Assembly (NCBI RefSeq): GCF_001485215.1
Contig: NZ_BBWW01000001.1
Coordinates: 3,348,001 to 3,412,000 of the forward strand
Direction of reading: 5' to 3'
DNA length: 64,000 nt
Source: Leptolyngbya sp. NIES-2104
GTDB lineage: Bacteria > Cyanobacteriota > Cyanobacteriia > Leptolyngbyales > Leptolyngbyaceae
Part shown: positions 1-3,606 of the stretch, piece by piece
How positions within the stretch are numbered: position 1 is the first letter of the stretch
Layout: every line of letters starts with the position of its first letter
Translations under genes and position numbers: made by a program
The notes under the pieces: model-generated
Seen by the model: the letters and a program-made list of their open reading frames with translations, nothing else
The model's database searches: none
Told to the model about the DNA's origin: nothing

Positions 1-205
1 CGTTCGCAATGTCGCGTAATCGATTGATGCTGAATCGTTTGCCCCAATAGCGTGCCACCATTACTAAACAAGCTGCCCCACAATCGGCTGCACTCTGCTG
101 CTGGAAGAAGGGATATCGCTTTGCCATGCCTCGCCAAAACTGATGAGCCTTGACTCTGGGACTTGGAAAGAAGGCTTGCTGAATCATCGGTGGTTTTGTG
201 GTCAT
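1..205 (-). CDS. C39 peptidase-domain ABC transporter, N-terminal fragment
   Basis: This partial gene continues past the left edge of the window. Its 68 visible residues contain the start of a bacteriocin-processing C39 cysteine peptidase domain: glutamines at residues 35-37, then the ADCGAACL motif with the probable catalytic Cys42, followed by MVARYWG. In this family the peptidase is fused to an ABC exporter; it cuts double-glycine leaders and exports the peptide across the inner membrane. The gene lies 143 bp downstream of a double-glycine-leader peptide on the same strand, which fits a transporter-substrate pair. The membrane and ATPase domains are outside the window, so a stand-alone peptidase cannot be excluded. 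Confidence 0.75.
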   Translation of the reverse strand, partial: MTTKPPMIQQAFFPSPRVKAHQFWRGMAKRYPFFQQQSAADCGAACLVMVARYWGKRFSINRLRDIAN

Positions 206-348
206 TGCAAGTTACTCCCGGCAAGCAGTGCAAGCAATTCGTAACGCTACTCGCTTGAAAACGCAGAGATGCATGAAATGCTTACACTACATACCATATC
301 AATCAGACTTATGATCTAAAGAACCTCACTTTGGGACAAACTTAATCT

Positions 349-675
349 TCACCCCCCCTGACCTTGTTGCTGACCTTGTTGCTGATCGTGACGGCTGCCG
401 AGATAGTAGCCAGCAGCCGCTCCAGCACCCGTTGATACTACCGTTGTTGGTAGTGGATGATTCTTCACCGCCTCGTTTGATCTACGGTAACCGTTAGCGA
501 TTCTGCTGCCAGCAGCGACTGCTCCTCTGACAACATAGGGAGCAGCGAATCTAGCAGCAATATAGATCCCCGCTAGAACAGGAAATACGCCGCCTTGAAT
601 AGAATTTTGCTCATCCTCAGAAAGAGGAATCAAAACATCTTCTGAATTAACCATTTGCTGTGCTTGATTTTGCAT
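349..675 (-). CDS. Double-glycine-leader secreted peptide (bacteriocin-like precursor)
   Basis: The 108-residue product begins with a hydrophilic leader that ends LSEDEQNSIQGG, a classic double-glycine leader; cleavage would fall after Gly29. The mature part is about 79 residues: a hydrophobic, Ala/Gly/Val-rich stretch, a basic centre, a second glycine-rich hydrophobic segment (TGAGAAAGYYLG), and a hydrophilic tail made of tandem GQQQ units ending in GG. I chose this ATG because GGAG lies 7 nt upstream; a start 27 nt earlier lacks a ribosome-binding site and would add residues foreign to such leaders. The adjacent C39 transporter is the obvious exporter. Activity (bacteriocin, signal or other) is unknown; no Cys is present, so lanthionine or disulfide formation is not expected. 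Confidence 0.75.
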   Translation of the reverse strand: MQNQAQQMVNSEDVLIPLSEDEQNSIQGGVFPVLAGIYIAARFAAPYVVRGAVAAGSRIANGYRRSNEAVKNHPLPTTVVSTGAGAAAGYYLGSRHDQQQGQQQGQGG

Positions 676-938
676 GATTTTTCTCCAATTCAACTGATTC
701 ATGTTCAAAACTGAACCGGGCTATGCCTGAGAAGCTTCTGTGATGGATAGTGGAACGATCGCTCATTCGACACAATCTCGGCAAAAATAAATTGAGTTAC
801 GTAGTGCAGCATGGCTACCTGCCAACCCAGAGAAGTGGTTGAACGATCGCAACATTAATCTCGATCGCTTCCTAAGTTGAGAAGCTCATCACTTGCTTAA
901 GAAAAAGGTTTCTCTGAAGGGTTTGTGTTCAGTGAAAC

Positions 939-2050: not shown

Positions 2051-2092
2051 TGCAGTTAAGGGCAGATACCTTAAGTTCATCGATTTGCACTA
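2051..2092. repeat. 42-nt degenerate direct repeat, copy 1
   Basis: This segment matches 3565-3606 at 34 of 42 positions in the same orientation. The two copies bracket the Ser/Thr kinase gene; this one contains the kinase stop codon. Shared blocks are TGCAGTT, GGCAGATAC and TTAA. Its origin is unknown. Confidence 0.6.
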
Positions 2093-3511
2093 TTTTTTCG
2101 CATTCAGCCAGGTCTGAATCTCATTCACCAGCCAGATAGACTCTTCTTCAGTGAGTTTCCAATTCAATCTATAATTCTGGTCGGCTCGAATGATAACTGT
2201 CCAGTCCCGGTGCGATGTATGGGTGGTAGACACTTGAGATGAAGTAATCGAAAGATATCGAATGGCTGAGAGCCTGCCTGATTCTCGTCTTATAGAAAAC
2301 CACGATCGAGTGATCACCATAAAGTGATCGCATCTCCTATCAAATTGAATCGAATTTCCACTTGCAGGAGAATCTTTTCTGTCTCTGGCTTCCCACAGAA
2401 TTTTACCGATCGAGATCAGGTAAGCCAGGATGAACCCAAGGGTGAATGCGTAAGCTCCGTCAGCGAATGGCAACAACGTAAAGCTGATAAAAGCCCAAGC
2501 GAGGTAGAAGAGGTAGAACGCAAGCGGAAGAATACTATCACTAAGATTGGGTGAACGTTCACGAACCTTGATTTTGAGAATTTGTGGAGTTTGCTCGATG
2601 ACAAGATGAGGACTGATGCGTTGAATTTTCTTCGATTGCTTAGAGGAAACAGTCTGAATTCTGTCCCGAATTGGAATCATTGAATCTATCCCTTGTTCCA
2701 GTGCTTCGCGGGCTTCACGGGCACTGGTAAACCGATTCTCCAAGGCAGGTTCGGTTAGCTTCTCTAGCCACCGGACAAAACTAGAATCTGTCATGCGATC
2801 GCGAAACTCAATCCGCAGATTGCGTTGGGGTAGATTAATCGGAGCAATTCCAGTCAGCAAATGAATTAACGTTGCTCCCAATCCGTACAAATCTGATGCG
2901 GCAACCGCTCGCCCGCCAAATTGTTCCAGTGGAGTATAACCGTAAGTGCCGACGATCGTAAACGTTGCGCCTTCGGTCGTGGCGCGATCCTGCACTGACC
3001 CAAAATCAACTAAGTAAACCTGATTGTTTGCACCCAAAATCAGATTACTCGGTTTAATATCGCGATGCAGCACCGGTGGCTTTAATTCGTGCAAATCGTG
3101 CAAAATTTGCAGAATGTCGATCGCGATTCGCCGCACTTCTTCTTCGCTAAACCGCTTACGGTCTTCGATTAATTGCTTTAGCGAGGTTCCGGGAATATAA
3201 TCTTGCACTAAGCCCCACCAACAGAATGGAGAATCAGCCTGCGGATCAACCAAGAAATAGTTGCGATAGCGTGGAATTCGAGGATGGTCAAGAGACTTTA
3301 AGATTTCCGCCTCTCGTTCAAACAGCTTTAAGTCTTGCCATTGCTGAATCTCAGTAAATACTAAGAGCTTGATAACAACCAACTCGTAGACATCGGTAGC
3401 TAAGTCTGTGGCAAGCCATGTTTGCCTCGCTTGGAACGATCGCCCTAACGGGTGTTGAAGTTGGTAACGCTCTTGCAGAACCTGATTTGCTTGAAACATA
3501 ACTTTACTCAT
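2090..3511 (-). CDS. Serine/threonine protein kinase with C-terminal membrane anchor
   Basis: A Hanks-type kinase domain covers roughly residues 13-275. The ATP-binding lysine is in VVIKLL, the catalytic loop is LHRDIKPSN, the Mg-binding motif is VDFGS, and the activation segment ends GTYGYTPLEQ. The glycine-rich loop is weak (LGRSFQARQ). Two hydrophobic segments follow (LPLAFYLFYLAWAF and FTLGFILAYLISIG), so the kinase is probably membrane-anchored with a small C-terminal domain of unknown role (FMVITRSWFSI onward). Likely starts are 3511 (MSKVMFQ) or 3499 (MFQANQ); neither has a strong ribosome-binding site. A longer reading to 3604 would translate the upstream direct repeat and is unlikely. 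The gene is divergent from the TIR/AAA gene. Confidence 0.85.
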   Translation of the reverse strand: MSKVMFQANQVLQERYQLQHPLGRSFQARQTWLATDLATDVYELVVIKLLVFTEIQQWQDLKLFEREAEILKSLDHPRIPRYRNYFLVDPQADSPFCWWGLVQDYIPGTSLKQLIEDRKRFSEEEVRRIAIDILQILHDLHELKPPVLHRDIKPSNLILGANNQVYLVDFGSVQDRATTEGATFTIVGTYGYTPLEQFGGRAVAASDLYGLGATLIHLLTGIAPINLPQRNLRIEFRDRMTDSSFVRWLEKLTEPALENRFTSAREAREALEQGIDSMIPIRDRIQTVSSKQSKKIQRISPHLVIEQTPQILKIKVRERSPNLSDSILPLAFYLFYLAWAFISFTLLPFADGAYAFTLGFILAYLISIGKILWEARDRKDSPASGNSIQFDRRCDHFMVITRSWFSIRRESGRLSAIRYLSITSSQVSTTHTSHRDWTVIIRADQNYRLNWKLTEEESIWLVNEIQTWLNAKK

Positions 3512-3564
3512 GTTTTTACAATCAGCATAGGCAAGCTTTGACTGTTTAGGCAGGAGCAGATCGA

Positions 3565-3606
3565 TGCAGTTGAAGGCAGATACATTAACTTCAGTGATGT
3601 GCATTA
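3565..3606. repeat. 42-nt degenerate direct repeat, copy 2
   Basis: This is the partner of 2051-2092 (34 of 42 identical, same orientation). It lies just upstream of the kinase gene, in the region between the divergent kinase and TIR/AAA genes. Confidence 0.6.

Follow-up and report, generated by a model that had tools for sequence, protein, structure and literature searches.

The left end of the analysed window (64,000 nucleotides, G000:C1:3348001-3412000 of the 6.39 Mb genome of Leptolyngbya sp. NIES-2104) raises the question of whether a small open reading frame beside a C39 transporter encodes an exported peptide and, if so, where such a peptide would act. The left flank beyond the window was read as locus L007 (window coordinate = L007 coordinate - 13001). 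The initial annotation had described a 108-residue precursor with a double-glycine leader just upstream of a C39 transporter on the same strand, and this arrangement was confirmed: based on its open reading frame, codon usage and leader score, the precursor gene occupies positions 349-675 of the minus strand (108 aa, from the ATG at 673-675 through the stop codon at 349-351), with a gap of 143 nt to the downstream exporter, whose ATG lies at 203-205 on the same strand. The precursor ATG is preceded by GGAG (683-686, minus strand), a likely ribosome binding site, and a longer start at TTG 708 would give 119 aa. Of the 3 promoter sites that a scan returned (shuffles gave an expectation of 7.1), none lies on the minus strand; predicted terminators numbered 6 (6.8 in shuffles). 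The codon usage of the precursor is that of a gene: its log-odds of 0.17 per codon compare with 0.24 +/- 0.08 for pieces of long open reading frames and -0.18 +/- 0.09 for wrong frames.

The leader (589-675, minus strand, 29 codons) ends in LSEDEQNSIQGG and was assigned from the sequence, from a leader profile and from the recognition positions described in an excerpt of PMC6363468, in which Leu-12, Leu-7 and Val-4 occupy the protease groove, and an acidic or basic residue at -4 or -7, or most changes of Leu-12, abolished processing. The window leader exhibits Leu, Gln and Ile at -12, -7 and -4, with Glu at -8; the Gln at -7 stands where Leu is usual. Using a profile built from 38 leaders of other loci, most of them gathered with a pattern that the window leader also fits, the leader scored 12.7, the highest value among the 151 G-[GAS] sites in open reading frames of at least 35 aa in the window (runner-up 4.3). 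Shuffling the window 20 times gave at most 11.7, so that the leader stands clearly, though not hugely, above chance. Scored by leave-one-out, the reference leaders themselves ranged from 0.8 to 28.3, two of them reaching only 0.8 and 3.6.

The core peptide (352-588, minus strand) is, as had been noted, Cys-free and 79 residues long (8.1 kDa, pI 10.3, charge +5), contains 12 Gly (15%) and closes with the Gln/Gly tail RHDQQQGQQQGQGG. Its first half carries Arg at positions 13, 21, 29, 35 and 36 and reaches a helical moment of 0.63. The previous description of two glycine-rich hydrophobic segments did not fully hold for the second, which is Gly/Ala-rich, shows little helical moment and is not strongly hydrophobic. 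AlphaFold2 run on the single sequence returned one helix over precursor residues 20-72 as a weak fold (mean pLDDT 68.6).

Extended leftward, the C39 fragment at positions 1-205 of the window proved to be the start of a complete C39-ABC exporter gene of 743 aa (L007 10975-13206, minus strand, reaching G000:C1:3345974), with an HlyD gene downstream on the same strand (L007 9650-10918 = G000:C1:3344649-3345917, 422 aa). Membrane and ATPase domains are both present, so that a C39 fragment lacking any ABC domain is ruled out: Pfam E-values are 1e-41 for C39, 2.1e-46 for ABC_membrane and 2.1e-36 for ABC_tran in the exporter, and 1.5e-26 for HlyD_3 in its partner. The stop-to-stop frame of the exporter is only 745 aa and hence leaves no N-terminal extension. 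The reading frames of precursor, exporter and HlyD are all open. Read from an alignment to PCAT1 (4ry2), the exporter retains Q36, C42, H115 and D131, positions that we take to be the catalytic residues of PCAT1. This assignment fits the Cys-His-Asp triad that the excerpt of PMC6363468 reports for LahT. The best match to an outer-membrane OEP component in the genome lies away from the locus (G000:C1:4060982-4062199). A second ABC gene was not seen in the L007 open reading frame list or among 8 scanned proteins. Nor did we recognise an immunity gene: apart from precursor, exporter and HlyD, L007 9476-13899 holds 9 open reading frames of 30-48 aa, which we judged unconvincing without membrane prediction.

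The initial annotation had also considered two small upstream proteins as possible members of the cassette, a proposal that comparison with another genus of the same family (G009, locus L152) did not bear out. In G009, genes for the 115-aa and 169-aa proteins lie beside a kinase 77% identical to that of the window, and window DNA from 842 up to 6499, where the compared stretch ends, aligns with G009 DNA at 78-88% identity in three pieces. The alignment breaks sharply at window 842 (L152 8788), between the small upstream genes and the peptide, and the export module probably has its right edge here. Past the junction, G009 exhibits a gene with weak likeness to a PPIase that stays under the Pfam cut-offs, an 850-aa C39-ABC gene, an S8 subtilase, a DUF4279 gene and, sharing 28% identity with that of the window, an HlyD-like gene. 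The same flank is joined to a different C39 export cluster in each of the two genera. Since the DNA common to both genera spans the small upstream genes and stops at 842 before the peptide, these genes, including that of the 169-aa protein near the locus, are most simply and probably flank; a further reading is that they serve both export clusters. Counting the own genome, a homologue of the 115-aa protein was found in 2 of 97 genomes and one of the 169-aa protein in 6. The 115-aa gene (939-1286) has a low codon score (-0.035), yet its product shares 79% identity with the G009 counterpart. For the Ser/Thr kinase (2090-3604; PF00069, 2.3e-27), the best match among nine relatives searched was that at 77% in another genus, with the best match in the same genus at approximately 50%. 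The G+C content of the module (0.474) is like that of its flanks (0.478 and 0.465) and thus gives no compositional sign of recent import.

On the left, the 121-aa gene past HlyD was read as flank because members of its family occur in 22 of 97 genomes, counting the own genome, which gave 4 matches. The dienelactone hydrolase on this side is present in 6 of 9 chosen relatives, and in five of these six no sign of the cassette was found around it (L157-L160, L175-L177): neither HlyD nor the 121-aa protein was matched in L157-L160, and L175-L177 resemble L007 at the DNA level over the hydrolase gene only.

The exporter itself is widespread, with matches at 1e-150 in 74 of 97 genomes, own included. 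Across 80 named exporter loci retained of 96 in genome_contigs, some of which overlap, tblastn detected HlyD in 80, the cNMP region in 78, the PPIase in 71, an HTH gene in 53 and an LxmK-like kinase in 20; in the 51 loci with long flanks the counts were 51, 51, 49, 30 and 14, respectively. The same searches of L007 detected HlyD and gave no match to the cNMP region, PPIase, HTH gene or LxmK-like kinase, with queries that also missed the N-terminal part of the 1041-aa L059 exporter and the weakly PPIase-like gene of L152, so that diverged forms can escape them. In a quick tree of 109 rows, the window exporter falls inside a set of 86 (SH-aLRT 99) whose rows are 865-1064 aa long except for the window exporter and L139 (637 aa); its terminal branch is long (0.3) and its exact position unsure. 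It lies far from the two short exporters that the own genome carries near CTB-family peptides, the placement of such distant long branches being unsure. A single clade of the window exporter with the short exporters of L047 and L048, a group named after the tree had been seen, was rejected (p-AU 0.0005). Exporter type changes 4 times over 107 rows (the short rows L139 and L109_21 are in the tree and omitted from this count), and whilst such counts give no direction, loss of the N-terminal cNMP domain in the window exporter is the simplest reading. Small open reading frames with a leader score of at least 10 were found in 39 of the 80 loci (83 peptides) and none at that score in the other 41, a count that is a description and not an independent test, since the profile was partly made from those loci. 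Among these relatives, a peptide of L066 scores 17.7 bits with the bacteriocin leader model TIGR01847, whose cut-off is 15.7 bits, and one of L043, from the same genus, shows a weak MccV match (0.0045) below the cut-off.

Relatives of the peptide itself were sought at several depths. At E 0.01 the own genome was the sole match in a set of 97 genomes (0 of 96 relatives), and at E 0.001 it was again the sole match in an overlapping class sample of 388 (0 of 387 others). Searches of genome_contigs, plasmids (E 0.01) and viral_contigs likewise returned no relatives; the contig searches detect close relatives only, and those of genome_contigs and viral_contigs may omit records very near the genome of the window. 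Within its own genome the peptide matches itself and one further sequence at E 0.027 (34% over residues 38-89). No Pfam or NCBIfam family covers it, and at E up to 1 NCBIfam, which includes the CTB family bacteriocin model NF038167 and the NHLP / N11P precursor models, returned 0 families. Comparison of the core with 95 distinct cores of other loci gave a best score of 50 (L053) in an Ala/Ser-rich alignment that 9 of 300 shuffles matched, and a best phmmer E-value of 0.018: these marginal similarities were not accepted, and none of the 95 appears convincingly like the window core.

Two further C39 loci of the own genome (L140 10135-11620 and L141 3829-7892) hold 4 and 2 small double-glycine peptides, respectively, and the one peptide scanned from each matched the CTB family bacteriocin model above its cut-off. 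The CTB-matching peptide of L141 has the leader LSDEQQETVSGG, which also exhibits Gln at -7. A lanthipeptide was considered for the window and rejected, the core containing no Cys and L007 giving no LxmK match. Separately, cores with Lys/Arg/Gly/Ser repeats were seen on double-glycine peptides of the related C39 loci L047-L050, L132 (4383-4634) and L135 (4760-5041), those of L047-L050 with a Cys close to the end. LxmK-like kinases occur in L047-L050 (that of L047 from tblastn), those scanned scoring far under the family cut-off; a HopA1-domain gene is present in L047, L049 and L050. Such a pair of LxmK-like kinase and HopA1 protein is that of class V lanthipeptide synthetases.

The organisation of the locus is a known one. 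Wang, Fewer and Sivonen (2011; PMC3140520, excerpt) described 145 clusters and 290 precursors from the 58 genomes that they examined, with the same C39-ABC exporter with HlyD and a nearby small double-glycine precursor; given that cores showed very little conservation in these clusters, an orphan core is to be expected. Group III of that work, marked by a short-type exporter without SurA or a second ABC gene, may share the organisation of the locus; the window exporter differs in falling among long types, mostly with cNMP domain, in a tree that held no named group III reference. Class IIa microcins (PMC10233263, excerpt) share the double-glycine leader, the C39 exporter (PCAT) with adaptor, the core length and the Gly content: class II cores are given as 60-90 aa and microcins as Gly-rich. 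Thus, whilst the statement that the peptide resembles no bacteriocin stands for its sequence, its length and Gly content lie within the class II microcin range. The locus differs from class IIa microcins in that no immunity gene was recognised, the core is cationic and no sequence similarity was found; according to the same excerpt, microcin immunity proteins lack conserved features by which they could be spotted, and the 169-aa protein of the window sits past the junction at 842.

From this evidence we infer that precursor, exporter and adaptor probably form a working peptide export cassette of known kind with a core that finds no place in described families. The leader helix would be bound by the C39 domain and cut after Gly29, and the 79-aa core would leave by way of the exporter and HlyD and then cross the outer membrane through a TolC-like channel whose gene lies elsewhere; export of the core in this manner is very likely. 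No modification gene was seen near the locus, and the core is presumably unmodified. The Ala/Gly-rich first stretch of the cationic core may form a helix, followed by a Gly-rich second stretch, and the peptide would most likely act on the membranes of competitor bacteria, as an unmodified class IIa microcin does. Such membrane action is the weaker part of the proposal, and antagonism is clearly less assured than export. For the reading as a whole, an unmodified, cationic, microcin-like and antagonistic peptide exported by a type I system, we estimate a probability of about 0.5. Against a microcin-like peptide speak the failure to recognise an immunity gene, the cationic core, the Gln at -7, the lack of a family match and the weak fold, together with the fact that EbfG, cyanobacterial double-glycine peptides with tested function, act in biofilm (PMC4997328, excerpt).

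The latter peptides suggest another destination for the exported core, as a biofilm or cell-surface protein without antibacterial action, which we consider unlikely. The C39 exporter PteB takes part in the efficient secretion of EbfG1-4 of Synechococcus elongatus, which carry double-glycine motifs and have cores without homology to proteins from other cyanobacteria (PMC4997328, excerpt), whilst EbfG1-3 form amyloid (PMC9981879, excerpt); the likeness drawn here is one of description, and the failure to recognise an immunity gene and the Gln/Gly tail of the window core would suit such a role. However, the EbfG genes number four on one transcript (PMC4997328, excerpt), whereas the window locus has one. 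A decaying cassette, in which a short exporter has been left without its usual partner genes beside an orphan reading frame, would account for L007 giving no match to the cNMP domain, PPIase and HTH gene found in 51, 49 and 30 of the 51 full-flank related loci, but the open frames of all three genes, the retained catalytic residues and the normal codon usage of the peptide make decay very improbable. A role as cell-to-cell signal is also improbable: peptide signals are usually shorter than 79 aa, and the nearby kinase sits past the junction at 842. Exporters of this kind do carry quorum-signalling peptides as well (PMC6363468, excerpt), and it is from this that the signal reading draws its appeal.

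Returning to the export of a microcin-like peptide, the different C39 clusters that adjoin one flank (kinase, 169-aa and 115-aa genes) in two genera allow the tentative proposal of an exchangeable export module, here possibly a stripped-down exporter without cNMP domain, PPIase and regulator genes that is dedicated to a new kind of taxonomically restricted core. The arrangement of genes was already known (PMC3140520, excerpt); what sets this locus apart is the orphan core combined with an exporter that lacks the cNMP domain found at the N-terminus in its nearest relatives. The locus adds an orphan peptide to the large class of cyanobacterial secreted peptides, the products of which are mostly unknown, and natural short exporters such as this would allow one to ask what the N-terminal domain does in export.
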